A stretch of DNA of 64,000 nt. Source: Symmachiella macrocystis. Its GTDB lineage: Bacteria; Planctomycetota; Planctomycetia; Planctomycetales; Planctomycetaceae. The stretch covers positions 930,001 through 994,000 of the forward strand of contig NZ_SJPP01000001.1 of assembly GCF_007860075.1 (NCBI RefSeq), written 5' to 3'. This document shows positions 7,383-49,696 of the stretch, in pieces; the stretch's first letter is position 1; each line of letters begins with the position of its first letter. The translations under genes were made by a program, and so were the position numbers. The notes beneath the pieces are model-generated. The model did no database searches, was not told the origin of the DNA, and saw only the letters and a program-made list of their open reading frames with translations.

Positions 7383-8351
7383 TCACGCCGTTTCCCCGAC
7401 AGCTAACGCTCTCAGTCGCCCCAATAACTCTTCCCGAAATCGCTGCAACGAAAACTCCCGATCACCATGCGCGCGGCAACTGCGTGATTGACGTAACTTT
7501 TCGCCCGGATCGAATAACGTCGCGATCGCGTTGCTGAATTCTCCAACACTCGTACACAGATGTCCGCAGCCATCGACAAGCTGTTCCTGAAATCCCCCCC
7601 GACGATCAACAATCGGAATGCAACCGGCCCGCAGCGCTTCGGCTGCCGTCCGTCCAAACGACTCCGTGAGAGTCGGATGGTGGTACAACAACGCATCCCA
7701 ATGCAACAAACGTTCACGAGCCGACCACGCCGCTTCAAAAAACTGGGCCTGCCCCGCGCAAGCGGTGCGCAGCGGATCTTTTAGCTTGGCTGGACACCCC
7801 ACGAACTCCCAGGCGACCTCCGGATGTCGCTGCGCCAGTTCCGCATAAAACTCCACCAGCATCTCCGGCCATTTCCGCGGCGCCGGCGTACACAATCGCC
7901 CCACCACCGGTCTGCCCCGCAACGCGCGTGTGTCGAATCGCCGCTCCCGCCCAATGGGTGTCGGCACCGCTTGGTGCAACACGGTGTCCGCCTCAGCGCC
8001 ACAGCACTCCGCCAGCAACCGCGAACAATAAACACGCAAGTCACTCGCCGCCGGCGTGATGCGCGAATGCTGATACAGCAACGTCGCCACGGGCAAAGGA
8101 CCTTCCGCGCGACGGGCGGAGGTATTGTGCAACAAGACCACATCCGCGCCGCTACTACGCACGCGCGCTGCCGTTACTTTGTCCCATTGTTCGATTTCAC
8201 AATCATCAAACACCACCCGCGTGTCCGCAGCTACGCGGCTGAGAAATACAACCGTGTGTTGAAACTCCGGCAAACTGCGAACCACCGTCCACGCGCACGC
8301 CGCCGTCCCCCCCATGATCCGCCCCACATTACACACCTGCAACATGCGCAC
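7383..8351 (-). CDS. Glycosyltransferase, GT-B fold (GT4-like)
   Basis: Soluble glycosyltransferase of 322 residues. The N-terminus MLQVCNVGRIMGGTAAC has the Gly-rich loop of GT-B enzymes. The C-terminal half has LLYHHPTLTESFGRTAAEAL followed by AGCIPIVDRRGGFQE, the GT4 donor-nucleotide region with the E-x7-E type element. It is the last of three minus-strand genes (DUF115-like, GT2, GT4) that follow the phage-derived tail genes with short gaps, so it may act on a particle component or a surface glycan. The start is GTG 8351, which has GGGAG at a good distance; ATG 8345 is the alternative. Donor and acceptor cannot be inferred. Confidence 0.82.
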   Translation of the reverse strand: MRMLQVCNVGRIMGGTAACAWTVVRSLPEFQHTVVFLSRVAADTRVVFDDCEIEQWDKVTAARVRSSGADVVLLHNTSARRAEGPLPVATLLYQHSRITPAASDLRVYCSRLLAECCGAEADTVLHQAVPTPIGRERRFDTRALRGRPVVGRLCTPAPRKWPEMLVEFYAELAQRHPEVAWEFVGCPAKLKDPLRTACAGQAQFFEAAWSARERLLHWDALLYHHPTLTESFGRTAAEALRAGCIPIVDRRGGFQEQLVDGCGHLCTSVGEFSNAIATLFDPGEKLRQSRSCRAHGDREFSLQRFREELLGRLRALAVGETA

Positions 8352-8398
8352 AGCTTTGCTCCCGGCCCAACAGAGAGGATCTCAAACCAAACGAAAAA

Positions 8399-9100
8399 TC
8401 AGTCAAGCCCGGACAGACCACCCGCAAGAAGCTGCTGCCACTTCGCAATAAACACCTGACGGTCCGCGCACCATTGCTCGCGCTGCCGCGGCAAAAGGCA
8501 GCCGTCATGCGCCGTGCGATGCCCCAAATGCACCAACGGTAACCCGGCAACATCCCGCAGCACTTCTCGGGAATCATCCGCCGCCGATGCCGCGCGCAAC
8601 TGCAAATCGGTGTCCGACCAATACACGCGCAGCGACTCATCGAATCCCCCCAGCTCGTGAAATACAGAAGCTGCGATCGCAAAACACCACCCTGCCAGAT
8701 AGTTCCGCATCGCCAACCGGTCCAACAGCGATGCGGGCAACGCCCGCTCAATGCGCATGGCAACACCGGTCAGGACGCACTCCTTCTGCCGCAACGGTCG
8801 CACCAATTCGTCGACCCACGGCCCCGTGGAAATCGTGTCGTTATTCAAAAACACCAAAAACGGTGTCCTGGCCGCGGCCGCACCACGGTTCCAAGCCGCC
8901 GAGACCCCGCGGTGCGGTTGTAAAATCAATCGCCCGGGAGAAAGATCCCCCACGCTTAACCCTGCCGCTGTCTGCGGACTCCCGTCATCCACAATGACAA
9001 CCGGCCAAGCCGCAGGGTCCTGTTCGCGAAAACTGGTCAAACAGTGCCGTGTCAAATCCGCATGTCCCCGCTGCGGGATGATGATGGTCGTATCGAGCAT
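8399..9100 (-). CDS. Glycosyltransferase family 2 protein
   Basis: GT-A fold glycosyltransferase of about 233 residues. The start reads MLDTTIIIPQRGHADLTRHC, followed by VVIVDDGSP (nucleotide-binding Asp pair) and VFLNNDT, the DxD-equivalent that binds the metal and sugar nucleotide. FHELGGFDESL and VYWSDTDLQLR match the acceptor-side motifs of GT2 rhamnosyl-type enzymes. ATG 9100 has AGGA about 7 bases upstream and starts 13 bases after the stop of the preceding DUF115-like gene, suggesting one operon. The longer frame reaching 9421 overlaps that gene and is not credible. Confidence 0.88.
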   Translation of the reverse strand: MLDTTIIIPQRGHADLTRHCLTSFREQDPAAWPVVIVDDGSPQTAAGLSVGDLSPGRLILQPHRGVSAAWNRGAAAARTPFLVFLNNDTISTGPWVDELVRPLRQKECVLTGVAMRIERALPASLLDRLAMRNYLAGWCFAIAASVFHELGGFDESLRVYWSDTDLQLRAASAADDSREVLRDVAGLPLVHLGHRTAHDGCLLPRQREQWCADRQVFIAKWQQLLAGGLSGLD

Positions 9101-9113
9101 CGTGAATCCTGTG

Positions 9114-10250
9114 TTATCCCATTTCCTGCAGAGCCGGTTCTGCATCCCCCACGTCCTCCAGCGCGCCGCGCAATCGTTGCCGGACAGCTTGACGACCGTT
9201 ACCTTCCACTTGTTGATAACCTTCCGCCTCCACCACCAATTCCCCGTCTGCGGGAACCGGCTTCTCAACCTGCGCCACGCGCGGAGCCTTCCAATTGTGG
9301 GGCTTGAAGTCCCGCATCGGTCCCACCTCGGCCGGTTGTCGTGCCTCCATCTGTCGATACAACCCGCGCACCGGTTCGATTCGTGGATCCCCCACCACCT
9401 GTGCGATCTGCCCGCAGGCATCCTCGACTGTGCGGTACGGAAAATAGTCGTTCAAGCGACTACCGGGCGTCACGGATATCAACTGCAGTCCCGCCAATCC
9501 CAACGACCGTCGCGATAATCGCAGATACTGCGCAATACGAAAATAATGAGCATCGGTATTCGCCGCCGCCCGCACATGCTTCTGCTCGTCAAAGTGATAG
9601 TGCGGCCCCGGCGGCAAGGCATCGAACGTGTGGCAATCAACACCCGCTTGTTCTGCTCGCCTCAGAAAATCTCGCAGCAATTTCCCCGGAACCGCTTCGA
9701 TCCCCGCCGCTGCCGCACATTGCATCTGTGCATCCGACAAGCGCACGCGCATCTCGCAACCGGCCAGATAGATCGTCCGAAATCCCAAGCGATACAAAAT
9801 GTCGATCGCCTGCACCATCGAATCAGCCCAATCAACGATGCCGGTGAACCTCGGCGACAAAAATTGATGAAACCCCCGTTGGGCATCCCGCTCGAAAAAA
9901 TAGGTCCCCGGACATTCGCAAACTTTATAGGTCGTCTCCGGCACCAGATCCATGGCCCGCCGCCGATGCACGAACTTCAGAATTCCCGGATCAAGATACA
10001 CCGACCGATGAAATCGGGCCGACGGATCGTACGAAGTCCAAAAATTTGGCCGTAGTATCCGTGTCCCCGACAGATTCACCGACATCTTGGGCACGGGAGA
10101 CTCATCGATCAAACGGTGCGGCAACTCCGCCAACGACGGCCCGCCCCCAATTAACCAACACGCCGACGCCACCGGTCCAGCGAACGCATCATCCAACGCC
10201 GCTGGGATTTGCTGGCCGTCGGTCGTCAGTCGATAGAACAACGTCGTCAT
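9114..10250 (-). CDS. DUF115/MptE-like protein next to tail genes
   Basis: Resembles the DUF115 (MptE-like, Maf-related) family, whose members include a pterin diphosphokinase and motility-associated glycosyl- or nonulosonate-transfer proteins, and which also occurs in phage-structural neighbourhoods. Visible marks are WLIGGGPSLAELP near residue 33 (Rossmann-like Gly loop), SVNLSGTRILRPNFWTSYDP, and DSMVQAIDILYRLGFRTIYLAGCEM, a DUF115-type core. The last 70 residues are charged and look unlike the core. ATG 10250 has AGGGGA upstream. The gene begins 77 bases after the big tail gene on the same strand and is followed by two glycosyltransferases, so a role in glycan addition is plausible but inferred. 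Confidence 0.6.
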   Translation of the reverse strand: MTTLFYRLTTDGQQIPAALDDAFAGPVASACWLIGGGPSLAELPHRLIDESPVPKMSVNLSGTRILRPNFWTSYDPSARFHRSVYLDPGILKFVHRRRAMDLVPETTYKVCECPGTYFFERDAQRGFHQFLSPRFTGIVDWADSMVQAIDILYRLGFRTIYLAGCEMRVRLSDAQMQCAAAAGIEAVPGKLLRDFLRRAEQAGVDCHTFDALPPGPHYHFDEQKHVRAAANTDAHYFRIAQYLRLSRRSLGLAGLQLISVTPGSRLNDYFPYRTVEDACGQIAQVVGDPRIEPVRGLYRQMEARQPAEVGPMRDFKPHNWKAPRVAQVEKPVPADGELVVEAEGYQQVEGNGRQAVRQRLRGALEDVGDAEPALQEMG

Positions 10251-10327
10251 TGGTTATCCATCCCCTGATTGAATAATCCACTGCGAGTTAGTGAATAAAA
10301 CTCCGCGCCGACAACTTGCAATCACGG

Positions 10328-12337
10328 TCACTCTTCGTAACACACCTTGAGCTTGACCGAATTGACCTCCGCCGTACGATTAGTCGCATTGCTCAAATGT
10401 TCGACTGAGGATAAATCGACCTGCAATCCAAACGCATTGAAATCATCCGTCGTCCAGGATTCGCCCCACGTATCCCCTTCGCCGCCCACGATCTCATCCG
10501 TTTCGCTGTCCGGCCACACGCCGCTACCCACGAACAAGCTCTTCGTCCCCGACTTGCTGCCACTGGTCACCGTGACCTCGCCACCTACGACATCGTCGGC
10601 TCCGTTGTTCGAGCACTCAAGGTTGTACGTCACCGTGATTCCAACGACTGTTTTGCCCGACGGCAACGAGAAATTGAAATCAAAGCATCGCAGGATTTGG
10701 GCAGATTGGGACTGGCCCAAGGTCACCTCTCCCTGACCACCACCAAGTCTTTCCCATGCGACATCGCCGCCGTCATTAACTTTGTCTGAGTCCGTCGCCG
10801 TTTTTTCGACACACGTGTCATTCGCACTGCTGGTACTGCTCTCGCCGCCAGTACCACTTTCCCCCCCGCCACTGCTCTCCCCACTCTCCGACGCTCCGCT
10901 CGATTCCTCTCCACTGGACACACCCGAATCCGACGAACCGCTTTCCCCGCCGCTCGATTCGCTCTCACCACTACTGCCGCCTCCTTCCGATTCAACACCT
11001 GATTCGCCACCAGACAGTTCGCTGGAATTCAAACTGCTCGACAACCCGGAACTGGAACTATCCGATACAGACGACGAACTCGCATCGGTCGAATCAGGAC
11101 CGACGTCGCTGTTGTCAAACGAAAGTTCGCTCCCCCCATGCCCGCCATTTTGATTTTGGTTTCCCGGAATCTCCCACCGCTCATCGTGCGGCGGTTCCGG
11201 CCAATGCGTGTGTGGATCTTCCGGCCCGATCTCCAACCGAAAACGGGGCGCATGATCAAATTGCACCCGGATGGTCTCCACCATCGCCGAGATCAACTCC
11301 GCCCCGCTTTGATCCTTGATCTGTATTCGTCCGCCCCACGGCACCGGCAGCGCAGCCTGATCGGCAACCTCAACGAAATACCGACTCGTCGGTTGGGCGT
11401 AAACGCGAAAAAACTCTTTCACAAACTGACGCGAATCCGATTCCGTCCGTATCCAAGGAATCCAAATCCGAATCCGCCGCTCTCCATGTTGATCCCGGCT
11501 CGCCGGCTGAATGTAATTGCCCCGCCAACGATAATAACCCCGCATGAAAATGTCCGACCCCAACTGCTCGTCATAGATATACCCGCCGGTCAGCATCACG
11601 CGGTTGTACAGCAAATCCCGATCGCGGGACTCCTCCAGCGAAACAACATCCAGGCCCTCTTGAAACGTGGCAATCACCGACGTCCGTTTTTGAAAAAAGA
11701 AAAAACGCCCCCAGGCATCCACGCCCCACGACGCATTGAACGCCCGAACGGCCTCTTCTTTGAGAATCGAACGCACAGTCTCCTCGCCCCGAAATTTGGC
11801 TGTCGTCACTCCCTCGGCCAAATTCACAGCATCGATCATCGCAGCATCGAGTGTAATATGCGTCCGCGAAACCACATATTGTTGCAGTAACAACGTCACA
11901 AATTCATCCGGCTGACTCACCGCATCGACCGTCTCTAGCGAATGGTCCGGGTCGTGGGGAAACAGATCAGTCCGGGCATAGCGATGCGGAGGCGCGCCAT
12001 CAGCGCGGTCCGGAGAAAACCCACCGGGAAACACCTCTCCCAATTCCACACTCATTCCCTGCAAGCGAAACGAGATCTCCGCCGGACTCGTCGCCACGCG
12101 TTCCTCAACGCGCCCCAAGTACCAGCGATCACCCGTCTGATACGCCATCGAGATCCAATCCCCGATCTCGATCTCCGCACGATCCACGAATCGATCCTTC
12201 AGCCGCAATTCCCCCGCCCCGCAGCCACCTTGCCGATGCAGTTCAAACCAACACCCAGCAATCGCACGATCAGAAATCACCGCCTGAAAATCACCCGGCC
12301 CCGGACGATAATGCACAATCCGTCGTTGATAACCCAT
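10328..12337 (-). CDS. Large phage-type tail protein with Ser/Gly-rich linker
   Basis: About 669 residues in three parts. Residues 1-400 look like a phage baseplate/tail-hub protein (MGYQRRIVHYRPGPGDFQ; many beta strands; FVKEFFRVYAQPTSRYFVEV). Residues about 402-512 are almost only Ser, Gly, Glu and Asp. Residues 513-669 form a separate beta-rich domain (GKTVVGITVTYNLEC, KLKVCYEE) that resembles a carbohydrate-binding or jelly-roll module. This is the layout of a receptor-binding tail tip. ATG 12337 has AAGGAA 8 bases upstream; the longer open frame to 12487 runs into repeat DNA. It is the last structural gene of the particle locus. The Ser-rich linker is a possible O-glycosylation target of the adjacent transferases. 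Confidence 0.72.
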   Translation of the reverse strand: MGYQRRIVHYRPGPGDFQAVISDRAIAGCWFELHRQGGCGAGELRLKDRFVDRAEIEIGDWISMAYQTGDRWYLGRVEERVATSPAEISFRLQGMSVELGEVFPGGFSPDRADGAPPHRYARTDLFPHDPDHSLETVDAVSQPDEFVTLLLQQYVVSRTHITLDAAMIDAVNLAEGVTTAKFRGEETVRSILKEEAVRAFNASWGVDAWGRFFFFQKRTSVIATFQEGLDVVSLEESRDRDLLYNRVMLTGGYIYDEQLGSDIFMRGYYRWRGNYIQPASRDQHGERRIRIWIPWIRTESDSRQFVKEFFRVYAQPTSRYFVEVADQAALPVPWGGRIQIKDQSGAELISAMVETIRVQFDHAPRFRLEIGPEDPHTHWPEPPHDERWEIPGNQNQNGGHGGSELSFDNSDVGPDSTDASSSSVSDSSSSGLSSSLNSSELSGGESGVESEGGGSSGESESSGGESGSSDSGVSSGEESSGASESGESSGGGESGTGGESSTSSANDTCVEKTATDSDKVNDGGDVAWERLGGGQGEVTLGQSQSAQILRCFDFNFSLPSGKTVVGITVTYNLECSNNGADDVVGGEVTVTSGSKSGTKSLFVGSGVWPDSETDEIVGGEGDTWGESWTTDDFNAFGLQVDLSSVEHLSNATNRTAEVNSVKLKVCYEE

Positions 12338-12349
12338 GAACCATTCCTT

Positions 12350-12535
12350 TGTAAGAGGCGTGAGGCGTGAGGGGACAGGCCTGAGAATTGCAAGCAAAAA
12401 ACCAAACGCGCCCTCGTGCGCGGGTCTCCCGACCCCGCACATCCCCCGACCGAAGGTCTCCCCCCGCCCCTCCCAACCACTACTCACTACCTACTCTTAC
12501 TCGCCACCGACCACTTCTCCCCCGCCTACAACAAC
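12350..12535 (+). repeat. Composite intergenic repeat, copy 1
   Basis: Modules seen in plus-strand order: GAGGCGTGAGGGGACAGGC, CAAGCAAAAAACCAAACGC, the double hairpin element at about 12415-12462 (GTGCGCGGGTC / GACCCCGCAC, then GACC-GAA-GGTC), degenerate CTACT units, and a CCACCGACCAC block. It fills the spacer between two tail genes. Confidence 0.85.
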
Positions 12536-12988
12536 TCACCCCCCAGGCGCCGTCGTAAACAACACCGGATTCTCCGCATGTACCACCAACGAATAGGTGA
12601 ACAAATTCTGATTCGACAAATCCATTTCAAACTGCACCGTCGAACACAATTCGAATTTGCGATACGTCCCGCTCGTTGCGTCGTGATAGAGAAAGAACTC
12701 AAACTTCTCTGACGCCGACGAAACATCCAACGTGCTTCGCAACGCCTCCAATTCCTCAAGCATGGCCCCTTCGGAAGTCTTCAGCGAACCGCTCTGCGAA
12801 CCGATCTGTCCTTCCAGGGAAATATCCACCCCCTGCCGCGAATGCCCCACCAATGCATCCCCATCGGCTAACGGCACTTTAAACCGACTCGCATCCCAAG
12901 CATCCCGCACCCGCAACACCGGAACCGGCCGCGGCAATTCATACAACACAGAACTCTTATAAACCGCCGGCTTAAACACAAACGACAT
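12536..12988 (-). CDS. Phage distal-tail/minor tail-like protein
   Basis: A 150-residue beta-rich protein starting MSFVFKPAVYKSSVLYELPRP. The phrase LVGHSRQGVDISLEGQIGS and the closing LFTYSLVVHAENPVLF suggest a tail-tube or distal-tail (Dit) fold, but I do not recognise a specific family and the call rests mainly on position between the tape measure and the large tail protein. ATG 12988 has TGGAGAA upstream at good distance; the longer frame to 13087 runs through repeat DNA. Composite repeats flank it on both sides. Confidence 0.55.
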   Translation of the reverse strand: MSFVFKPAVYKSSVLYELPRPVPVLRVRDAWDASRFKVPLADGDALVGHSRQGVDISLEGQIGSQSGSLKTSEGAMLEELEALRSTLDVSSASEKFEFFLYHDATSGTYRKFELCSTVQFEMDLSNQNLFTYSLVVHAENPVLFTTAPGG

Positions 12989-13004
12989 CGCAATTCTCCA
13001 AGCG

Positions 13005-13182
13005 TCATTAGACTGTAGGCTTGAGACCTTAGGCTGTAGGAAGGAAGGGGTGAGGCGTGAGGGAACAGGCGTGAGACTCGCAAGCAAAAACCAAACGCAA
13101 ATCCCCCACCACTGCCTACTGCCTACTGCCTACCTTTCTGGCCACCGGCCACTAGCCACCGGCCACTTCGCCCCTGCCAACA
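13005..13182 (+). repeat. Composite intergenic repeat, copy 2
   Basis: Contains the TAGACTGTAGGCTTGAG block, GTGAGGCGTGAGGGAACAGG, CAAGCAAAAACCAAACGC, three CTGCCTA units and a CCACCGGCCACTAGCCACC block. The double hairpin element is missing in this copy. Confidence 0.85.
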
Positions 13183-13185
13183 GCA

Positions 13186-13884
13186 TCACCCCCGCCGCGC
13201 CCGCAGCGACGAATCACGAAACTGCAAGTCACGCACCACCCCGGCGACTTCACCCACCTGCGAAACATTCACCGTCACGCCGCCCAGATTGTTGGTGATC
13301 GAAGTCGACTGCCCCGCCGGGGATCCCGGCAATTGCATGGTCCGTGGATTCGTCGGCGAAGACTGATTCAGCGCCGATAAAAACGCTGCCCCCAATTGCT
13401 GGACCGCTGGACGACGAATCACAAACTCGCCGGCCGTCAACATCGCCGGTACACGATCCACCCCGCCCGGCCCCGTCACCATTCCGCCACTGGCATACGC
13501 ACGAATCGGTCCCGTCGCACCTCCTGCGCCCCCGACAGTACCTACGGCGGACAACCGCGCCAGCCGCGCAGCGGTCGCATCAATCAACCGCCCCAAAATC
13601 AACAGTGATTGCACTGCCGGACGAATGTCCAACACAATCGGCGTCCGTGATAACAAACGAATCTGACTCGTAATCCGCTCCAACAACGTACTGATCGTTT
13701 GCAGCGGCCCAATCGCCAAACCAATCCGCTCAAACGACCGCCCCATCTCCGATGCCGCCCGATTGAACCGCCCCAACCGATCACTGAGCGAAGAAATCCG
13801 CTCACCCACCCGATCCAATTCCCGCGACAAATGCGAACTATCCCCCCGAATCGCAATCGTCAATGACTCCCGAAACGCCACCAT
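13186..13884 (-). CDS. Very short phage-type tail tape-measure protein
   Basis: The N-terminal half is a predicted coiled coil (HLSRELDRVGERISSLSDRL, residues about 18-37). The C-terminal part carries the tape-measure hallmark YASGGMVTGPGGVDRVPAML followed by TAGEFVIRRPAVQQLG. At 232 residues it is far shorter than phage tape measures of 600-1500 residues, so the tail would be very short, or this is a reduced remnant. The gene lies directly after the tail-tube gene in transcription order. ATG 13884 has GGAGG 7-8 bases upstream. Repeats flank it on both sides. Confidence 0.72.
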   Translation of the reverse strand: MVAFRESLTIAIRGDSSHLSRELDRVGERISSLSDRLGRFNRAASEMGRSFERIGLAIGPLQTISTLLERITSQIRLLSRTPIVLDIRPAVQSLLILGRLIDATAARLARLSAVGTVGGAGGATGPIRAYASGGMVTGPGGVDRVPAMLTAGEFVIRRPAVQQLGAAFLSALNQSSPTNPRTMQLPGSPAGQSTSITNNLGGVTVNVSQVGEVAGVVRDLQFRDSSLRARRG

Positions 13885-13897
13885 CGCTATGCCTCCG

Positions 13898-14102
13898 TTG
13901 TTAGACTGTAGGAAAGTAGGCTTGAGGCGTGAGGGGACAGGCTTGAGGGGAAAAGGCGGTAGGCCTTAGTCCGTAGACTGTAGGGTTGGCATTCAATTGC
14001 CGTTTGGTTTCCCCCCATCTCTGGCCACTGGCCACCGACAACTGGCCACTCTTTTCTGCCTACTGCCTACTGCCTACTCTTTCTGGCCACCGGCCACTGT
14101 TT
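13898..14102 (+). repeat. Composite intergenic repeat, copy 3
   Basis: Contains TAGACTGTAGG, GAGGCGTGAGGGGACAGGC, a CCGTAGACTGTAGG block, CTGGCCACTGGCCACC, three CTGCCTA units and a second GGCCACCGGCCACTG block. No double hairpin element. Confidence 0.85.
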
Positions 14103-14612
14103 TCACTGCCTACTAATCACCGGCGCCACCTCAAAGTCGCGACCGGAAAACGAAATCAAGTTCGCCTCATCCCCTTCGTTCATCGTCAGCGACTCACGAT
14201 ACACCTTGGCAAACACGATCTTCTCACCGGCAACCCCCGCCGGATCGGTTACCGTGAACTCCAACTGCAACGTCTCCTGCTCCCCACTCTGGGACGTGCT
14301 GACAATATTCAGCCCCGACATGAAGTTCAGAAACTCATACAACTGCAAGGGATCGCCGCTGTCGTTGTACTTCCCAATCAACTGCGTCCACTTCGCCGTA
14401 AACGACAGTGCAATCGATTCCTCATCCCCCGGCCGCGTATGCCCCGCTGCGACCGATCCCCGATCCTTTACTTCAATCGTGTTCGACCGCTGCGTCCAGG
14501 ACAAATCCCCCTCGTCCAACAGCACCGTCAACGACTGCGGAGTCTCCGACGTCCCATCCTTAATCACCAATTCCCCATCGCGCAAATTACGCGTCACATT
14601 CGTAACCGCCAT
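14103..14612 (-). CDS. Phage-type tail tube protein
   Basis: A 169-residue beta-rich protein starting MAVTNVTRNLRDGELVIKDG. The text DGTSETPQSLTVLLDEGDLSW and the later LQLYEFLNFMSG and VFAKVYRESLTMNEGDEANL fit the tail-tube (gpV/gpFII-like) proteins of siphoviruses and gene transfer agents. It lies just before the tape measure in transcription order, as usual for a tube gene. ATG 14612 has AAGGAG at an ideal 8 bases; the longer frame to 14756 extends into repeat DNA. Confidence 0.7.
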   Translation of the reverse strand: MAVTNVTRNLRDGELVIKDGTSETPQSLTVLLDEGDLSWTQRSNTIEVKDRGSVAAGHTRPGDEESIALSFTAKWTQLIGKYNDSGDPLQLYEFLNFMSGLNIVSTSQSGEQETLQLEFTVTDPAGVAGEKIVFAKVYRESLTMNEGDEANLISFSGRDFEVAPVISRQ

Positions 14613-14635
14613 CGCTGCCACTCCTTCGTATTTAT

Positions 14636-14846
<211 letters not shown>

Positions 14847-14847
14847 A

Positions 14848-15300
14848 TCAAACCTCCGTAGCCACCCCCGACGTCACCAGCACCACATGCTGCAATCCAT
14901 GCCGCCTCGCATCGCGATCCACTCGCGTCATCGTCCGTGTTTGCGTCTCGAACAATTGCAAATGCCCCACCACCGGCGGATCGCTCAACGATTGATCCGT
15001 CACCGGAACTTGCTGATGCTCCAACGTCGACTTCGCCGCATCGGCCAATTCCAAAATCCGACCTTTGTCCAAAGTTCGCTCCACAAAACAATGCACGGTC
15101 ACCGACACATCCACTTGCTCCTGCCCCGCCGCTCGCCGCGGATTCCGCTGCCAGGCATTGACCCATATCTCCAACCACTCGCTTTGCTCGGTCGCATCGA
15201 TCTGTGTCCCCGGATACACCGTCGTCACCCCCAACGGGAAGTTGTCACTCCAATGCGCAAACAGACTCCCCGCCAATGCTTCTTGTCCAAATCCGCTCAC
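14848..15300 (-). CDS. Tail-completion/terminator-like protein
   Basis: A 150-residue protein (MSGFGQEALAGSLFAHW) with YPGTQIDATEQSEWLEIWVN and VSVTVHCFVERTLDKGRILEL, a pattern typical of tail-terminator or minor-tail proteins that cap the tail tube. It starts with GTG at 15300, and GTGA overlaps the stop of the preceding HK97 gp10-like gene by four bases, indicating translational coupling. This is one of the few gene junctions in the locus without a repeat. Family identity is inferred from position and pattern. Confidence 0.55.
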   Translation of the reverse strand: MSGFGQEALAGSLFAHWSDNFPLGVTTVYPGTQIDATEQSEWLEIWVNAWQRNPRRAAGQEQVDVSVTVHCFVERTLDKGRILELADAAKSTLEHQQVPVTDQSLSDPPVVGHLQLFETQTRTMTRVDRDARRHGLQHVVLVTSGVATEV

Positions 15301-15776
15301 ACCATGCTCCCCATTTCATCCTCAGCAGCAGCAAAAAACGGTTGCAGCGGAACCGCCGGGCGCAGACTCTGCAAACTGCGGGCCACCATTTGAAACGGCG
15401 ACATCCGCTGCGTACCGAACTCCAAATAGTTGATGTAATCCACCCCACTCGTCGCCACGACTTTCGTCACCTCTGACTCACTCGACTCAACAAAACCGCT
15501 CCGACTCCGCCCCTCAGAAATCGCCGCACCCTTCGGATGCGATCCTGCCCAACCGGCCGGAGCAGAACCACCCAATTGTTCCAAAGCCGCCACCCAAGAC
15601 GCGCGCGAACGCGCCGTATCCACCGGATTATTCTCAATCGTCCGCACCAGCGCCGACCGAGAAACCCGTCGCACCAACCGCCTACGAGCAGCCGGCACCT
15701 CACGCCGTTGAATCCCCCCCAACCATTGCCGCACCGCTGGCTCGTTGTTCAATTCAAGCGAAATTGACACACCCAT
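15297..15776 (-). CDS. HK97 gp10-like head-tail/tail-completion protein
   Basis: A 159-residue, very basic N-terminal region (EVPAARRRLVRRVSRS) is followed by NPVDTARSRASWVAAL and INYLEFGTQRMSPFQMVARS. The 'Y-LEFGT...PF' motif is the hallmark of HK97 gp10-like putative tail-component proteins. ATG 15776 has AAGAGGTGA upstream. The stop overlaps the next gene's GTG start, so the two are coupled. It follows the head-joining gene by about 220 bases, a spacer without the composite repeat. Confidence 0.75.
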   Translation of the reverse strand: MGVSISLELNNEPAVRQWLGGIQRREVPAARRRLVRRVSRSALVRTIENNPVDTARSRASWVAALEQLGGSAPAGWAGSHPKGAAISEGRSRSGFVESSESEVTKVVATSGVDYINYLEFGTQRMSPFQMVARSLQSLRPAVPLQPFFAAAEDEMGSMV

Positions 15777-15789
15777 CAGCACTCACCTC

Positions 15790-15864
15790 TTAGCTCTTCA
15801 CACAACGCAAAGGGTGGCAGCGATTACAACGCAATCGGTGTTCCGCAGGCACAAGAAACCGCAA
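15790..15864 (-). CDS. Possible 24-residue zinc-knuckle peptide
   Basis: Low-confidence small gene. A GGAGG (15874-15878) lies 9 bases before a TTG at 15864, and the frame reads LRFLVPAEHRLRCNRCHPL then RC, ending VKS-stop at 15790. Three Cys in CNRCHPLRC resemble a zinc knuckle; Mu-like phages encode a small zinc-ribbon protein (Com). The frame is also open upstream to an ATG at 15891. Against it: very short, non-ATG start, and the locus is generally open in this frame. It occupies a spacer that lacks the composite repeat. Confidence 0.28.
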   Translation of the reverse strand: MRFLVPAEHRLRCNRCHPLRCVKS

Positions 15865-15998
15865 TTCCCGCGTCCTCCGCCCACCAACCATCCCGCCCAC
15901 AATTGACCTAAAATCAAGCCCCCACAAATCAACCACCCCCAAGCGACCAACGGGAGCGCCCCAACCCCCTCGTGCGGCAGCACGAACCGCCCGCCCGG

Positions 15999-16361
15999 CT
16001 AGGGCCGGCAAAGGAGTTGGTAGGTGGTGCCGTCTTCGCTGTTGGCGTAGCCTACGATTTCGTATTCGCGTTCTTGATGCACGATGCGGCTGGTTAGTTT
16101 CGGAGTCCCGGCCGGCAGGTCCGCTTGTTTGACGAAGAACTCAATCATGTCGGTCGTATGCTGCCCCGCCGTCCCCAGCGTCGGTTCCCCCGCATCGCCG
16201 CTGACGAGTGCCGTGATTTCGGTGTCGGTGTATTCTTCACTCACCTGCTGAGTCGCCGGCACATACGACTGACTCACCTCACGATAAGTCACCCCCACCC
16301 CCCAATCCGAAAACACAACATCCAAATCCGCCCCCAACACCCCCGCTGCCACAGAAACCAT
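15999..16361 (-). CDS. Head-closure/head-tail joining-like protein
   Basis: A 120-residue beta-rich protein (LGADLDVVFSDWGVGVTYRE, later IEFFVKQADLPAGTPKLTSR and REYEIVGYANS). The size and the pattern of a small barrel with a long loop fit head-closure proteins that connect capsid and tail, but I cannot name the family with certainty. ATG 16361 has AAAGGAG 7 bases upstream. A composite repeat separates it from the preceding small gene. Confidence 0.55.
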   Translation of the reverse strand: MVSVAAGVLGADLDVVFSDWGVGVTYREVSQSYVPATQQVSEEYTDTEITALVSGDAGEPTLGTAGQHTTDMIEFFVKQADLPAGTPKLTSRIVHQEREYEIVGYANSEDGTTYQLLCRP

Positions 16362-16379
16362 TTCGCGCTCCTTTGTGTG

Positions 16380-16585
16380 AATAGACTATAGGCTTTAGAC
16401 TGTAGACCGTAGGTAGCAGGCGTGAGGCGTGAGTGAACAGGCTTGAGGCAGTCCCGTCGTGCGCGGGTCTCTCGACCCCGCCCCCAGTTAGGTTGTGCGC
16501 GGGTCTCCTGACCCCGCACCCCCCTCGACCGAAGGTCTCCCACCAACACAATTCTGGCCACCGGCCACTCCTTCACTGCCGACTA
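16380..16585 (+). repeat. Composite intergenic repeat, copy 5
   Basis: Contains TAGACTATAGGCTTTAGAC, GGCGTGAGGCGTGAGTGAAC, two hairpin elements (about 16457-16540) with the GACC-GAA-GGTC companion, and a CTGGCCACCGGCCACTCC block directly before the next stop codon. CTGCCTA units are nearly lost. Confidence 0.85.
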
Positions 16586-16837
16586 TTACTCCCCCACAGA
16601 AACTTCCCAACTCGGCCGCGACGTCAACAGCGTCTGGTAATACGACCGCGCTTCCAACAACGCCCGCAAGTTCCCCGCCCGATCCGCTGCTCCCGGGATC
16701 GCATACTTCAATGCCGACAACTTCCCATCCCGCAACAGATTCGTAATGTCCAAATCAATCTGCGCCAAAATACCCCGTATCTGCGTCTCAGTCAGCGAAG
16801 CCCCGCTCACCGAAGAAAGCCCCGATAAATCCGCCAT
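16586..16837 (-). CDS. Small head-tail joining-like protein (gpW-sized)
   Basis: An 83-residue, largely helical protein (MADLSGLSSVSGASLTETQI) with LARALLEARSYYQTLL-like C-terminal helices (visible as NLRALLEARSYYQTLL). Size, helicity and location between capsid and head-closure genes suit a gpW-like head-tail connector, but no diagnostic motif is visible. ATG 16837 has AGAGG about 9 bases upstream; the GTG at 16846 is too close to it. Repeats flank the gene on both sides. Confidence 0.5.
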   Translation of the reverse strand: MADLSGLSSVSGASLTETQIRGILAQIDLDITNLLRDGKLSALKYAIPGAADRAGNLRALLEARSYYQTLLTSRPSWEVSVGE

Positions 16838-16857
16838 GCGTTTCACACCTCTTTTCT

Positions 16858-17160
16858 AACTAGGCTGTAGGCTTTAGACCGGAGGCTGTAGGAAGGGAGG
16901 CTTGAGGCGTGAGGGAACAGGCGCGAGGATACGATACGCTGTGCACAGGTCTCCCGACATCGTTGTGCGCCGGTCTCTCGATATGGTTGTGCGCGGGTCT
17001 CCAGACCCCGCACCAGCCCCGACCGCAGGTCTCCCAACTTAAACAAGACGCCTACAAGCAAAACCAAACGCCCCCACACCCTCTTCACTGCCTACTGCCT
17101 ACTGTCTAATATTTCCGGCCACCAGCCACTAACCACCGGCCACTCTTGTCCACCGACCAC
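16858..17160 (+). repeat. Composite intergenic repeat, copy 6 (triplicated hairpin)
   Basis: Fills the 326-base spacer. Modules: GGCTGTAGGCTTTAGACC, GGCTTGAGGCGTGAGGGAAC, three successive hairpin elements of decreasing decay (about 16939-17037, the last complete), CAAGCAAAACCAAACGC, two CTGCCTA units, and a CCACCAGCCACTAACCACC block. Confidence 0.85.
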
Positions 17161-17163
17161 CCA

Positions 17164-17343
17164 CTACCCATCCCCATCCCCATCCCGCAGCATCACATAC
17201 GCCAACCACCGCACCTGATCCACATACTCCGCTGCGACAAACTCCGCTTCCCGCAGCCCCAACTGCTCACAACAACGCAGGATCCAATAATCGACGGACC
17301 GCGGACCGGCGACGGCATCGTTTAAGTCGCCGCCGCCGGCGAA
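17164..17343 (-). CDS. -1 frame extension (59 residues) made by frameshifting
   Basis: This frame is open from just after the slippery site to a TAG at 17164. It has no ATG until near its end and no ribosome site, yet its sequence is protein-like: DYWILRCCEQLGLREAEFVA, EYVDQVRWLAYVML, ending in a DGDGDG tail. It is exactly the -1 frame of the preceding gene at its A AAT TTT heptamer. It is therefore best read as the C-terminal extension of a 226-residue fusion product, in the manner of the G/GT tail-assembly chaperones of lambda and many other tailed phages. The W-x-L...LG helical text is compatible with a 'T'-type domain. Not a free-standing gene. Confidence 0.7.
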   Translation of the reverse strand, partial: FAGGGDLNDAVAGPRSVDYWILRCCEQLGLREAEFVAAEYVDQVRWLAYVMLRDGDGDG

Positions 17344-17349
17344 AAATTT
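17307..17349 (-). promoter_or_regulatory. Programmed -1 ribosomal frameshift signal
   Basis: The slippery heptamer A AAT TTT occupies 17349 down to 17343, in the correct phase of the upstream frame (GGA AAT TTT TCG). Ten bases downstream a 7-bp stem CGGCGAC / GTCGCCG (17332-17326 with 17313-17307, 12-nt loop) could stimulate slipping. The zero-frame stop TAA lies at 17324-17322, 18 bases past the heptamer. After a -1 slip the next codon is TTC at 17343-17341, entering the 59-codon open frame. Confidence 0.72.
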
Positions 17350-17843
17350 CCCGCCGATTCCCGCACATGATCATCCAACAAGTTGCTCACGCGAAACACA
17401 TATTCGCACACCAACCCCACATCTCCCGCCGACCAACCCGCCCGTTCCAACTCCTCGCAAATTCCATCCGCATAGCCGAGCCAATCACCATCCACGTGCG
17501 GCAACGCTGTTTCAAACTGCAAGGACTCATCCGCTCGCAATCCTTCTACCAGCACCAAAGCCGCCACGCGCTGGTTATAAAGATCCAGCGCCGTCAAATA
17601 CTCGCCACTCTCCGCATCAGGCACCAACACAGCTAACCCCTGATGATCCCGCAGCGGTTTGCCCGATGAATCCCGCGCCACACGCGTCGGCCGCCGCGGA
17701 GCCACAATCCCCCGCTCCCGCAATCGCCGATGAAACGCCAAAGGCAACGGACTAACCGTCAACCCCCACACCGCCCCATCCCCCCGCGGCAACTCCACCC
17801 GCCGGCAATACCCCCCACTACAATCCACACCGCCATATTTCAT
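17322..17843 (-). CDS. Phage-locus protein with frameshift site, G/GT chaperone-like
   Basis: A 173-residue zero-frame product (MKYGGVDCSGGYCRRVELPR). The central part reads LYNQRVAALVLVEGLRADES and the end WSAGDVGLVCEYVFRVSNLL, then ESAGNF at the slippery site. I do not recognise the family by sequence. The combination of a modest protein, a heptamer a few codons before its stop, and a startless downstream frame is the signature of tail-assembly chaperones. Its place, directly after the capsid gene rather than between tail tube and tape measure, is unusual. ATG 17843 has GGGAG about 6 bases upstream; the longer frame to 17945 runs through repeat DNA. Confidence 0.65.
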   Translation of the reverse strand: MKYGGVDCSGGYCRRVELPRGDGAVWGLTVSPLPLAFHRRLRERGIVAPRRPTRVARDSSGKPLRDHQGLAVLVPDAESGEYLTALDLYNQRVAALVLVEGLRADESLQFETALPHVDGDWLGYADGICEELERAGWSAGDVGLVCEYVFRVSNLLDDHVRESAGNFSPAAAT

Positions 17844-17867
17844 AACCGCTCCCAAGAAAAAGAGGCT

Positions 17868-18064
17868 GTAGGCTTGAGACTGTAGACCGTAGGCAAGAAG
17901 GCGTGAGGATTTGACAAGTTGTGCGCGGGTCTCCAGACCCCGCACCCACCCGACCGAAGGTCTCCCGCCTACCCTTCACCGACCACCAGCCACTCTTCTC
18001 TGCCTACTGCCCTCTGCCTACTGCCTACTATTTCTGGCCGGTGGCCAGTGGCCACTCCCCCCCC
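17868..18064 (+). repeat. Composite intergenic repeat, copy 7
   Basis: Contains CTGTAGGCTTGAGACTGTAG, a complete double hairpin element (about 17918-17966), a CCACCAGCCACTC block, CTGCCTACTGCC units and GGCCGGTGGCCAGTGGCCAC. Confidence 0.85.
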
Positions 18065-18071
18065 GCGCGCA

Positions 18072-19268
18072 TCAAGCACCATCCACCTTCGTCACAAACG
18101 ACGTATCCACCGCCGAAACGCCGCCGTAGTACCGCACCTTGACCCGCAACACCACGTCGCGATCAAACGCCGATTCGCTGTCCGCTCGCTGCAGGAACGT
18201 CTGCACCGGCCAAATCTCCGTCCAGACAAACTGCCGCGCAAAATCACCCAGGTACCAGTCGTTGACCGCCTGGCCCCCTTGCTCGTCAATAAACGGCGAA
18301 CTGAGCACCTCGGCCAAACCGTGAATCGGATTCGCAAACGTTGTCTCATTATCGCCGCTCGTGACGGTGACCTGCGTTGAGTTCGCGACGCTCATCGCCG
18401 TCCCCCGCAAGGCTTCGGGCACCAACATGTGCTTGACCGGCATCACTATCGGTCGAGCCGTCCCGTCGATCCGATCGTCCGTAACTTCCGTCGCCCGGTA
18501 CTGCAACACCGTGTCGACATCGGTCCAATCCGCCAGCGGCACCGCACTGTTAAACGCCGTCGACGTCGTATTCCCGCTGCCCACCCAGTTCCGATTCGAA
18601 CCATCGGTCTTATACAACGCCTGACCGGCCCCGTTCGGCCGATAGACAAACTTCGAGCTCGCCGCATCGGCGTCGGTCACGCCCCGCACGATCGTCCGCT
18701 CGCGCTCCTGCCGCAGATAAAACCCCAGCGCCATCGCACGGCGATTGATTTCACCCGTCTGGTCAAAGGCAATCAACTCTTCGTTGATCGTCAGAATCCG
18801 CCCCTGCTTCGATTCCTCCGAGGTGACGTACTTCTCCTCAAACGTCGACTCCTCATACGGATGCCCTTCAGAAACCTCCGTCGGCCCCGCCAACGCCTTA
18901 AAGCCGGCGATCTTCTGATTCCGCAATCGGCTCGGCATCACCGAGACCAATTTGTCGCCGATGAATCCCGAGTCGTCTTCGTAACCCTCAATCACCTTCC
19001 GCCCGATCAGCTCCCCCGTCACAACCTGAAACAGATTCGTACTCACCCCCGGCGACGATTCCCGCAACACATGTAGCGGACTCGAAACCGGCGAAGCCAT
19101 CTCATTCAACCGCCGCAAATCAGGCAGCACCCCGCAAGCGTCCGCCAGCTCGTAATAGCTAAAATCATCAACCGAAATCTTTCGCTCATTGAGCAGCCCA
19201 CACACCTTCTGATAAAACCCCTCCGCCCCCAAGGATTCCACCAACCCCCTCAAACTCTGCCCCTGCAT
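18072..19268 (-). CDS. Major capsid protein, Mu gpT-like
   Basis: A 398-residue HK97-fold major head subunit resembling Mu gpT. An N-terminal helical region (VESLGAEGFYQKVCGLLNER) is followed by NLFQVVTGELIGRKVIEGYE, PYEESTFEEKYVTSEESKQG and RRAMALGFYLRQERERTIVRG, the typical gpT run in which the extended arm and the spine helix lie. The C-terminal part has VKHMLVPEALRGTAMS and DWYLGDFARQFVWTEIWPVQ, characteristic of gpT homologues. Full-length and intact with no internal stop. Order protease - decoration - capsid is that of tailed phages and GTAs. ATG 19268 is used. Confidence 0.85.
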   Translation of the reverse strand: MQGQSLRGLVESLGAEGFYQKVCGLLNERKISVDDFSYYELADACGVLPDLRRLNEMASPVSSPLHVLRESSPGVSTNLFQVVTGELIGRKVIEGYEDDSGFIGDKLVSVMPSRLRNQKIAGFKALAGPTEVSEGHPYEESTFEEKYVTSEESKQGRILTINEELIAFDQTGEINRRAMALGFYLRQERERTIVRGVTDADAASSKFVYRPNGAGQALYKTDGSNRNWVGSGNTTSTAFNSAVPLADWTDVDTVLQYRATEVTDDRIDGTARPIVMPVKHMLVPEALRGTAMSVANSTQVTVTSGDNETTFANPIHGLAEVLSSPFIDEQGGQAVNDWYLGDFARQFVWTEIWPVQTFLQRADSESAFDRDVVLRVKVRYYGGVSAVDTSFVTKVDGA

Positions 19269-19289
19269 ATCTCACCGTCCCTTATTAAA

Positions 19290-19595
<306 letters not shown>

Positions 19596-19596
19596 C

Positions 19597-20079
19597 CTAC
19601 CCCACAGCCGCATTCACATTCGCCGACCCGGTATGAAACGCCGAAGCAAATGTCACCCGCAGCTTCGTCGCCGCGGCCGCCTTATATTCCGCGGCCCGCG
19701 CAATCGCCAACGTCCCGGTCCCCACAGCTTCCAACTGTTGATCCATCAGCGACGACGACAACTCGTCCGGCCCCAACTCATCGCCCACTTCATAGGTCGC
19801 CGCAGCGACGTCGAACTCATAGATCGCCGACGGACTCATATCGACCGACACATCGTCCGTGTCGCCATCAGCGGATTGATGATGCACCACCCCAAGAAAC
19901 GAAGCGGCAAACGCCGATTGCGTTGTTGCCAGATCACTCGTCCAAGAAAAACTGCTGGCCGGCTTCACGTCATCGGTGTCCAAATACACCAAGTCCCCCG
20001 CCTCCAACACCGTCCCACTATCCACACGCAATTTATGCAACTGCACTTCACCGCTACGAAACCGCAACTGATTTCCCAT
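19597..20079 (-). CDS. Capsid decoration/head-stabilising-like protein
   Basis: A 160-residue protein starting [20 protein letters not shown], with [20 protein letters not shown] and a long beta-rich body ([20 protein letters not shown]). 'Acts on the property: generates, is set as level' type text (AGDLVY...V.PAS) is typical of head-decoration and DUF2190-like capsid accessory proteins, which sit between protease and capsid genes, as here. ATG 20079 has GGAGGG 7 bases upstream. Exact family uncertain. Confidence 0.6.
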
Positions 20080-20097
20080 ATCATTCCCTCCGGGAAA

Positions 20098-20318
20098 AAG
20101 GCCTTAGGCTGTAGACCATAGGCCATAGAAAAAACAAATCGTTATGCGCGGGTCTCCCGACCCCGCACCAGCCCCGACCGCAGGTCTCCCAACATAGGCA
20201 TAAGGCTCGAGGTAACAGGCGTGAGGCCGGCGCGGTAAAACCAAACGCACCTCCACCCAGCCTACTGCCCACTGCCCACTGCCCACTGCCTACTCTTCTC
20301 AGGCCACCGGCCACTCCC
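20098..20318 (+). repeat. Composite intergenic repeat, copy 9
   Basis: Contains a GGCTGTAGACCATAGGCC block, a complete double hairpin element (about 20142-20191), the stretch shared nearly identically with copy 8, CTGCCCA units and a GGCCACCGGCCACTCCC block. Confidence 0.88.
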
Positions 20319-20319
20319 A

Positions 20320-21495
20320 TCACCGCCGACAAGCAAGCAGCCGCACCAACGCCGCATCTGTACCTGCGCCACTATCGTCATCAGCACGCAAACAACTCGT
20401 CGGCCTGCAAGACCGCAAACGCTCAAACAACTCCACGCGATCCTCCAACAACACCGCGCGCTGCTCATCGTCGCTCGCATCCAACAATTGCTCGCGAAAC
20501 GTCTCCGTAATCGCCTCCTCCGGCAATTCCGCTTCCGCCAACAACCGCCCCACCGCCTCCACCCGCTGAGCCATGTCCCGCTCAGCCGTCAGATCCGAGA
20601 CCTCAACCAACAACAACTGTTTTTCTGCTTCCAACACGCGCAACCGCTCGGCGTATGTCTCCAAGGAATCCGCGTCGTCGGCCTCCGACGCAGCCTGGGC
20701 ACGACTCAAATCCTGCCACGACTCAGCACTCAGGTCGAGATCCCCCACCGGTTCCCACTCGCCCGACAGCCAAACCCGCCCGTCGCGTACCCGCCAGCCC
20801 ATGCGGTATTGCTCGCAATCGTCCGCCGCCCCCAATCTCACGACCACGCTCCGCGGAAACAACGCCACCCGCTCGCAGACCACGTCCGCATCACCGGTCC
20901 AATCGCGGGCGTGCCCCGGTAATTGCCCATCAACCTGCCGCAAGACCGATTCCAGCGATCCAAACAGTGGCGGAGCGCCAGGCAATTCATTGGTTTGCTC
21001 GGACAGTGATGACGTCGTTGCCGGAAACATCACCGCATCCACGCTCACCACTTCGTGGATTTCCTCAACCAATGTCCGTTCGCGGTTTTGCGTGACCAGC
21101 ACCACATGACTCATCCCCACCGATCCGCTGCCGCTGCCCGCCAACGCCAAAAAGGTACGCCCGGCCTCCGTGCCAAGCGTCTGAATGTCACCTCGAATCC
21201 GCCCATCAACAAAGCGAGGATTCACAATCTGTCCCGCCAAGTCCCGCGTGCTGCGTTCCTGCGGTTTGGACAAGTCCCGCCCATGATCCAAAAACACCGG
21301 CTTGTCCGCATACAACACCGCCGCCCGTCGCAGCGACTCCTCCGTATAGCGATAACCATTCTTCGATTCCGGCCCAGCCAACGCCACATTGCGAACGATC
21401 CCCGTCTCTAAATCGATCACAACCTCAGCAGCACGCCAATCCCCGATCCGTTCCACCACCCGTACCGGCAAGTTCGTCGCGGTTTCCGTCGTCAT
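20320..21495 (-). CDS. Phage prohead protease (head maturation protease)
   Basis: Serine-type prohead protease that would process the capsid shell. Marks are GPESKNGYRYTEESLRRAAV and YADKPVFLDHG, the strongly conserved opening of this family with its catalytic His, followed by STRDLAGQIVNPRFVDGRIR and GSVGMSHVVL with the candidate nucleophile Ser in the GSVGMS turn. The C-terminal third (residues about 270-370) is a charged coiled coil (TYAERLRVLEAEKQLLLVEV), consistent with a fused scaffold. 391 residues from ATG 21495; a GTG at 21498 is equally possible. It is the first gene of the particle locus: upstream lies a metabolic gene, not portal or terminase. Confidence 0.8.
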   Translation of the reverse strand: MTTETATNLPVRVVERIGDWRAAEVVIDLETGIVRNVALAGPESKNGYRYTEESLRRAAVLYADKPVFLDHGRDLSKPQERSTRDLAGQIVNPRFVDGRIRGDIQTLGTEAGRTFLALAGSGSGSVGMSHVVLVTQNRERTLVEEIHEVVSVDAVMFPATTSSLSEQTNELPGAPPLFGSLESVLRQVDGQLPGHARDWTGDADVVCERVALFPRSVVVRLGAADDCEQYRMGWRVRDGRVWLSGEWEPVGDLDLSAESWQDLSRAQAASEADDADSLETYAERLRVLEAEKQLLLVEVSDLTAERDMAQRVEAVGRLLAEAELPEEAITETFREQLLDASDDEQRAVLLEDRVELFERLRSCRPTSCLRADDDSGAGTDAALVRLLACRR

Positions 21496-22802: not shown

Positions 22803-23050
22803 TAGGCTGTAGGCTATAGACCGTAGAAAGATAGGCTTGAGGCACGAGGCAACAGGCTTGAGGCAATACACTCGACGACGGCACCGCTAAAAATCCCCCC
22901 TCTCCCTCTGGGAGAAAGGCCGGGGGAGAGGGTCGCGCGACGTTGTGCGCGGGTCTCCCGACCCCGCACATCCCCGACCGAAGGTCTCCCCCCACCCGTC
23001 CTGCCTACCGCTTACTTATGCTGGACACTGGCCACTGACCACCGGCCACT
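22803..23050 (+). repeat. Composite intergenic repeat, copy 11
   Basis: Contains GGCTGTAGGCTATAGACCG, GGCTTGAGGCACGAGGCAAC, a CTCTCCCTCTGGGAGAAAGG palindrome-like block unique to this copy, a complete double hairpin element (about 22942-22990) and a GGCCACTGACCACCGGCC block. Confidence 0.85.
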
Positions 23051-30116: not shown

Positions 30117-30250
30117 TCGGTTATAGACCGTAGGCGGTAGGAAGCGAGGCGTGAGGCCACAGGCCCGAGAAAAGTTAGTTGTGCGCGGGTCTCCCGACCC
30201 CGCACTCCCCCCGACCGAAGGTCTCCCCACCCCCAGCCACCAACCAAACC
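30117..30250 (+). repeat. Composite intergenic repeat, copy 12
   Basis: Contains TATAGACCGTAGGCGGTAGG, GAGGCGTGAGGCCACAGGCC and a complete double hairpin element (about 30177-30227). It lies between convergent genes and runs up to the stop of the prepilin peptidase gene. Confidence 0.85.

Positions 30251-48581: not shown

Positions 48582-49696
<1,115 letters not shown>

Follow-up and report, generated by a model that had tools for sequence, protein, structure and literature searches.

Gene transfer agents (GTAs) are described in one review as built from tailed-phage-related proteins, endogenised and often encoded at several loci, vertically inherited, unable to package their own genome in full, filled mostly with random host DNA, and able to deliver that DNA to cells (PMC9662315). 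The same review lists three independent groups with an established genetic basis, two alphaproteobacterial and one from a spirochaete, and places the genes of RcGTA, the agent of Rhodobacter capsulatus (Rhodogtaviriformidae), at five loci (about 20 kb). The RcGTA tail is short, at 49 nm and five tube hexamers, and its coordinates are deposited in the PDB (PMC7296036). Finding GTAs in more distant bacteria has been called challenging in a further review (PMC11841831), and among the open-access papers listed for GTAs or phage-like particles with planctomycetes, none reports a planctomycete GTA in its title or abstract opening. Here we describe a set of particle genes on the minus strand of the Symmachiella macrocystis genome, at positions 7383-21495 of a 64,000-nucleotide stretch ("the window"; NZ_SJPP01000001.1, 930,001 to 994,000). 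This set is probably the capsid and tail part of a new, independently derived, vertically inherited GTA, a particle that planctomycetes of this family, the Planctomycetaceae, would have adopted from a tailed phage.

The planctomycete set shares with RcGTA a phage-derived complement of capsid, portal, terminase and short-tail genes, apparent vertical inheritance and a spread over several loci. It differs in belonging to another phylum and in the sugar-transferase module behind the tail hub, which is part of the planctomycete set. A search of PDB sequences with portal and capsid profiles at E 0.01 returned only a lambda-type portal; whether the searched copy includes the RcGTA chains was not checked. 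Siphophages with a lambda-family portal have in common with our set the PF05136 portal, a hub fold as in phage tails, and the gene order, which in these phages runs TerL (large terminase), portal, protease, cement, capsid, connectors, tube, tape measure protein (TMP), distal tail and hub. In contrast to these phages, the planctomycete set is scattered and evolves slowly, as its hosts do, and integrase, replication and lysis genes went unrecognised among the genes examined nearby (4460-25897). BhGTA (VSH-1) of Brachyspira also has a single TerL outside its main structural cluster, conserved in the genus (PMC9662315), but it is an experimentally shown GTA of one genus, likened here by description. 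Finally, a Zavarzinella formosa prophage carries a planctomycete TerL that the paper presenting it puts close to RcGTA-like TerLs (Esterman et al. 2021, PMC7947584), although the element is described there as an intact prophage and is again likened by description.

Results

The set is well preserved and reads, in transcription order, prohead protease, cement, capsid, p207, c11, stopper-like protein, neck, tail terminator, tube, tape measure, p183, hub, p378, GT2 and GT1 (Table 1). Below, G000 is the S. macrocystis genome itself (7.57 Mb), in which the window is C1:930001-994000, and f1 is its family; gene-order statements on relatives cover the listed loci only. A first-pass annotation had described a capsid and short-tail set that begins directly at the protease and lacks terminase and portal, and this description holds: the genes are present where it placed them, all on the minus strand, the protease is the first gene after an isocitrate/isopropylmalate dehydrogenase-family gene, and portal and TerL profiles found no match anywhere in the window. 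The genes examined at 4460-25897 included none recognisable as an integrase, replication or lysis gene (lysis genes were not searched for genome-wide), and no tRNA was found in the window. An ordinary prophage would be one contiguous element with an integrase or transposase, att sites, and replication and lysis genes; here the genes are split and such genes were not recognised in that interval, att repeats not having been formally searched.

The packaging genes lie elsewhere in the genome. Orthologues of the TerL and portal that flank the capsid in relatives were found about 110 kb from GT1, in a module (C1:822255-827628) of ABC-ATPase, GNAT, TerL, portal and c14 genes, and a profile search built from the relatives' genes returned one portal and one high-score TerL in the whole genome. 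Terminase family PF04466 had given no match in this genome, and the correct TerL type was reached only by way of the relatives. Host genes flank the module, UbiA and a phosphoglucomutase at one end and genes for a P-type ATPase and a YTV-repeat protein at the other, and the stretch is syntenic with that of G001, a second species of the genus, at 90-96% DNA identity. In G001, an independent single-contig genome, portal and capsid are about 128 kb apart. Because this second species shows the same separation, we rejected an assembly error as its cause. A suspected in-frame stop in the portal was likewise rejected: comparison with the G001 reading indicates that this TAG is where the gene normally ends, and the open reading frame (ORF) is open over its full length.

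Two more TerL-like genes of this genome (C1:1076217 and C6:48731) match the module TerL at 41-46 bits only, and no capsid-like ORF was recognised by eye beside them. Judged by eye from ORF starts and by weak TerL matches, this genome shows two copies of what resembles a trio of HNH-type, small-terminase-like and large-terminase-like genes (L223, ~8942-11684; L224, ~7384-10129), with no recognised capsid-like ORF beside either.

Among relatives, a lambda-family portal precedes the protease, separated from it by one small gene at most, and is itself preceded by TerL; in one-piece relatives the order is TerL, portal, protease, cement, capsid and tail. The "Mu-like" label of the first-pass annotation is thus wrong, the portal being of the lambda family (PF05136). 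The TerL sequences keep CDE in 28 of 28 cases and HDDR in 27 of 28 (the remaining row does not cover the motif), which we take to be the ATPase (Walker B) and nuclease motifs.

We then looked at how far the set extends through the family. The capsid was matched in 39 of 79 relatives, and at ≥58% identity in 26 of 49 family genomes, G000 included. In a larger family sample at E 1e-10, it turned up in 57 of 170 genomes, spanning 35 of 58 genera; 46 of these 57 matches were strong (≥234 bits) and 11 weak. Close capsid matches in named records (28 loci) are mostly from Planctomycetaceae or its genera. In the cultured relative Thalassoglobus neptunius KOR42, locus L049 has protease, cement and capsid. 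Portal and high-score TerL nearly always accompany the capsid, each being present in 25 of the 26 capsid-bearing family genomes, and the exception (G004) is an 87%-complete draft. In G014 the TerL is in two pieces on two contigs; in G029, portal and TerL are present and the capsid is unmatched. The tube was found in 19 of the 79 genomes, which include 17 of the 26 capsid-bearing ones; two fragmented drafts (G018 and G040) have tube and TerL without capsid.

The separation seen in S. macrocystis is common. Nine single-contig genomes have a strong capsid match, and seven of them are split (G001, G006, G009, G020, G034, G041 and G081); the other two (G003 and G015) hold the entire set in one cluster. 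In G006 the modules are megabases apart (capsid at 0.11 Mb, TerL 3.51, portal 3.69, tube 3.71) and so probably could not fit one head. The corresponding positions are 0.42 for TerL-portal and 0.88 for capsid-tail in G020, and 0.06 for portal, 0.18 for capsid-tail and 0.29 for TerL in G081. TerL lies about 65 kb from the remainder in G041 and about 35 kb in G034, and in G009 the capsid is 23 kb from TerL-portal on the opposite strand, with no tube match. In a third species of the genus (G002), locus L075 (G002:C58:66000-85999) shows about 24 capsid codons and p207 directly beside hub, p378, GT2, GT1 and a CAAX-protease gene, with other genes beyond.

To compare the inheritance of these genes with that of their hosts, we used RpoB as reference. 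Mean pairwise identity was 77% for RpoB, 72% for capsid, 69% for tube, 57% for portal and 56% for TerL (G047 and G057 left out). For capsid, portal and TerL the rank correlation with RpoB identities was 0.43-0.48; for tube it was 0.19. Congruence was assessed with quick trees of the 21 genomes in which all four genes are present; three others (G022, G047 and G057) had been excluded beforehand. The tree of concatenated capsid, portal and TerL shared 7 of 18 splits with the RpoB tree, against a mean of 0.33 and a maximum of 3 in 1000 label shuffles; singly, capsid shared 5 splits, portal 3 and TerL 5 (shuffle maximum 3 each). Conservation across species had been offered at first pass as a mark of domestication, and the set is indeed kept across the family, with trees that follow the host tree in part, beyond chance.

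Selection was gauged by the ratio of nonsynonymous to synonymous substitution rates (dN/dS) between G000 and G001. The ratio was 0.020 for capsid, 0.019 for RpoB, 0.034 for tube, 0.035 for TerL, 0.044 for p207, 0.051 for cement, 0.073 for portal, 0.089 for TMP, 0.090 for hub, 0.110 for stopper, 0.114 for p183, 0.117 for p378, 0.133 for protease, 0.18 for c11 and 0.20 for GT1. Terminator (0.23), GT2 (0.30), c14 (0.35) and neck (0.37) evolve faster. In identity the capsid comes close to RpoB, and purifying selection on the two is similar.

The protein labels draw on several kinds of evidence (Table 1). We infer the protease label from His71 and Ser129-His130, invariant in 15 aligned sequences, and from position; its sole family match is weak, to the unnamed phrog_29592 (3e-6). 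Tube and p183 had no match in the Pfam and PHROG searches. NCBIfam gave nothing above its cut-offs, the best being matches to a lambda portal (1e-19) and to a fused protease/capsid (0.001), and in a sequence search of the PDB p378 and capsid were without match and the hub had one chance-level match (E 0.66). A search of 18 loci recovered the tape measure in 15, with a length of 226-251 aa in 13 and of 305 aa in one, the last being only partly matched.

The predicted hub structure has a mean predicted local distance difference test (pLDDT) score of 62.5 and is good over most of the first 380 residues, which are conserved across the aligned sequences. Compared with phage, tailocin and injection-system hubs, its predicted fold reached a best E of 1e-15 (HFTV1 tail), with Mu gp44 at 5e-14. 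The C-terminal part, 114-347 aa long in 12 aligned sequences, is 13-41% Ser and 28-62% Ser/Thr/Gly. Behind the hub stands p378, whose predicted fold weakly resembles ST6GALNAC2/CstII (E 3e-3), usually followed by a glycosyltransferase (GT) gene; this order was seen in at least 11 genomes or loci (L031, L032, L052, L054, G001, G003, G015, G020, G034, G041 and G002), while in L033 the hub lacks p378 and GT behind it. The three sugar-transferase-like genes may glycosylate the hub's C-terminal region.

Table 1. Genes of the particle set in the window and of the packaging module (ORF starts of tube 14612, hub 12337, p207 17840, p183 12988 and GT2 9100 trimmed by comparison)
Feature	Position	Strand	Evidence
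Putative prohead protease with C-terminal scaffold-like region	20320..21495	-	Inferred from invariant residues; adjoins cement/capsid in relatives
Cement/decoration protein	19597..20079	-	PF09956 7e-5, 23.6 bits (cut-off 24, just under); conserved before capsid in family
Major capsid protein, 398 aa	18072..19268	-	PF25209 5e-18; phrog_133 5e-14
p207, conserved, follows capsid	17322..17840	-	No Pfam match, chance-level PHROG match; position kept in many loci
c11, small, conserved, possible connector	16586..16846	-	tblastn with c11 of relatives, 62-63%; no family
Head completion/stopper-like protein	15999..16361	-	PF05521 E 0.1 (weak); position
Neck/tail completion protein	15297..15782	-	phrog_5 4e-7; phrog_169 2e-6
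Tail terminator-like protein	14848..15300	-	phrog_179 0.019 and PF11367 0.042 (both weak); position
Tail tube protein	14103..14612	-	Position, no family match; 50-75% identity to 10 homologues
Short tape measure protein, 232 aa	13186..13884	-	Several TMP PHROGs: best named 2e-7, best overall (unnamed family) 6e-11
p183, distal tail protein	12536..12988	-	Position, no family match; conserved before hub
Tail hub with long Ser/Thr/Gly-rich C-terminal region	10328..12337	-	Predicted fold
p378, sialyltransferase-like, GGGPSL motif	9114..10250	-	Predicted fold (weak); conserved in 10 aligned sequences
GT2, family 2 glycosyltransferase	8399..9100	-	PF00535 1e-14
GT1, group 1 glycosyltransferase	7383..8351	-	PF00534 2e-7
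TerL, 489 aa, intact	C1:824495-825949		PF03354 1e-13; phrog_9 3e-28
Portal, 451 aa, intact	C1:822884-824242		PF05136 2e-33; phrog_21 6e-43

A near-identical two-hairpin element recurs through the cluster, at window positions 12413-12472, 14683-14763, 16456-16551, 16938-17045, 17918-17977, 19336-19434, 20141-20200, 22942-23001 and 30178-30237, and also near portal and c14 (L109, 14672-14757 and 16304-16392). The mean identity over 12 copies is 84%. Copies on the coding strand stand 62-140 bases upstream of seven gene starts (cement, capsid, p207, c11, stopper, tube and hub) and 159 bases upstream of the dehydrogenase gene; those near portal and c14 are on the coding strand too. Its 17-base core has 27 matches genome-wide at one mismatch or fewer (reversed control, 0), of which the window cluster accounts for 7 and the packaging module for 3. 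When eight copies were folded as RNA, three went beyond shuffles (z -4.4, -2.8 and -2.2), and in five the signal was weak or absent. Among the compared loci the element occurs only in those of G000 and G001, and we therefore rejected it as a family-wide signal; it looks like a genus-level feature, either a locally spread repeat or an RNA leader common to these genes. Short arrays of the 7-base unit ACTGCCT were also seen in cluster gaps and elsewhere (~13111-13133, 14056-14078, 17087-17103, 19494-19564 and 48614-48673).

The head genes reach beyond the family. At E 1e-30 the portal profile matched 97 of 397 genomes of the class, 39 in f1 and 58 outside. With four candidates scored in each genome, every matched genome gave a single hit apart from G323 and G404, which gave two. 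Twenty stretches were retrieved for wider comparison, 18 of them from families other than f1. By profile, portal, protease and capsid stand together in 16 of these 18 loci (L254 and L262 have the portal alone), and cement is present in 15 of the 16 head loci, in two of them behind the capsid. The portal-protease-cement-capsid head module was seen in other families of the class at L076 of G057 and at loci L252-L266 and L269-L271. In family f11, the capsids of eight genomes share 73-89% identity (average 78%). One f11 genome has a TerL of a different family (phrog_38, 7e-76) and an ABC-GNAT gene beside the head genes, and the neighbourhood looks host-like, with a gene that by eye resembles elongation factor P. 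The TerL type of S. macrocystis occurs at high score only in f1 (12 of 294 genomes in a phylum sample, all f1); more distant TerLs in other families of the class reach up to 276 bits (G051, G060 and G072). Vertical inheritance outside f1 is at this stage a lead and not a result.

The capsid was also sought in viral records. The 50,697 phage records contained no relative of it at E 0.01, and a pattern-based scan of IMG/VR found only two contigs with the capsid. One of these, L153 (IMGVR_UViG_3300023443_000190), has a more distant copy running from TerL to tube, followed, by eye, by a transposase-like and a secretion-like ORF; it is possibly a bacterial contig misfiled as a virus.

Discussion

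The set described here is built, kept and inherited like a GTA. As far as genes alone can tell, its family and fold matches are those of tailed-phage-related proteins able to form a caudovirion-like particle. It is endogenised at more than one locus, both in S. macrocystis and in most of the single-contig genomes, and it has co-diversified with its hosts in part, with identities near that of RpoB. A GTA-like or otherwise domesticated particle with its packaging genes elsewhere had been one suggestion of the first-pass annotation, and the distant TerL-portal pair, the family-wide conservation and the partial congruence with the host tree all support it.

If the GTA reading is right, proheads would form around the protease and scaffold encoded in the window, and TerL and portal from the separate module would act on them in trans. 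TerL would then load pieces of the host chromosome until the head is full. A short tail, its length fixed by the 232-aa tape measure, would be attached through the connectors. The hub, which carries a Ser-rich tail that may be glycosylated, would contact other planctomycete cells, into which the DNA may be released.

Several observations weigh against this reading. The system is known here from its genes, and DNA transfer is presumed from its likeness to GTAs. A uniform function across the family fits poorly with the tube, which went undetected in 9 of the 26 genomes that have the capsid (six of the nine are ≥97% complete). The tape measure was not found in 3 of the 18 loci searched (L033, L034 and L052). 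L033 and L052 keep hub and p183 with no tube or tape measure between terminator and p183, and at L037, L039, L040, L046 and L063 other genes follow the capsid, any tail genes being elsewhere or gone. G002 has lost most of the set, and portal and TerL were not detected there, so the system is dispensable. Capsid presence requires 8 changes on a quick RpoB tree of 44 genomes, which could mean many losses or some gains, possibly repeated. The tree agreement is only partial, the portal alone doing no better than the best shuffle, and neck, c14 and GT2 evolve comparatively fast.

Among the alternatives, the one that survives best, though we consider it unlikely, is a particle domesticated for another use, for instance to kill rivals or to carry a cargo of protein or DNA that serves defence or storage. 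The long Ser-rich hub tail and the sugar-transferase-like genes behind it in most loci would suit such a role, as would the patchy tube, a poor fit to simple DNA injection, and the G002 locus, where p207, hub and glycosylation genes have outlasted the capsid. Conservation of the TerL motifs and portal alongside the capsid in 25 of 26 genomes nevertheless points to DNA packaging.

We find it highly improbable that these genes belong to active temperate phages or satellites spreading among planctomycetes. The patchy presence (about a third of the larger family sample, with the 8 changes on the host tree) is what such spread could produce, and some distant homologues, at ~30% identity, may be real prophages, but the modules are scattered in most single-contig genomes, the capsid evolves nearly as slowly as RpoB, the trees agree with that of RpoB beyond chance, and one of the two IMG/VR capsid contigs runs into transposase-like and secretion-like ORFs. 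Equally remote is a decaying prophage remnant, also raised at first pass, in which chance rearrangement split off the packaging genes and the rest drifts: the same cluster has truly decayed in G002, and integrase, replication and lysis genes went unrecognised among the genes examined, but purifying selection (dN/dS below 0.4 in every tested gene, 0.020 in the capsid) contradicts it and led us to reject it; both modules also have intact frames, and TerL, portal and capsid, scattered as they are, are retained jointly across the family.

Returning to the GTA reading, its reach may be wider than the family. We tentatively entertain an ancient, independently domesticated, class-wide GTA, in which a head-packaging core of portal, protease, cement and capsid would be vertical across many families, the tail and terminase modules would be scattered, replaced or lost, and the hub of f1 would be sugar-coated by dedicated transferases; we regard this as possible, and short of probable. 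If true, a conserved GTA in this large environmental phylum would represent an independent domestication of a virus and a route of gene exchange there.

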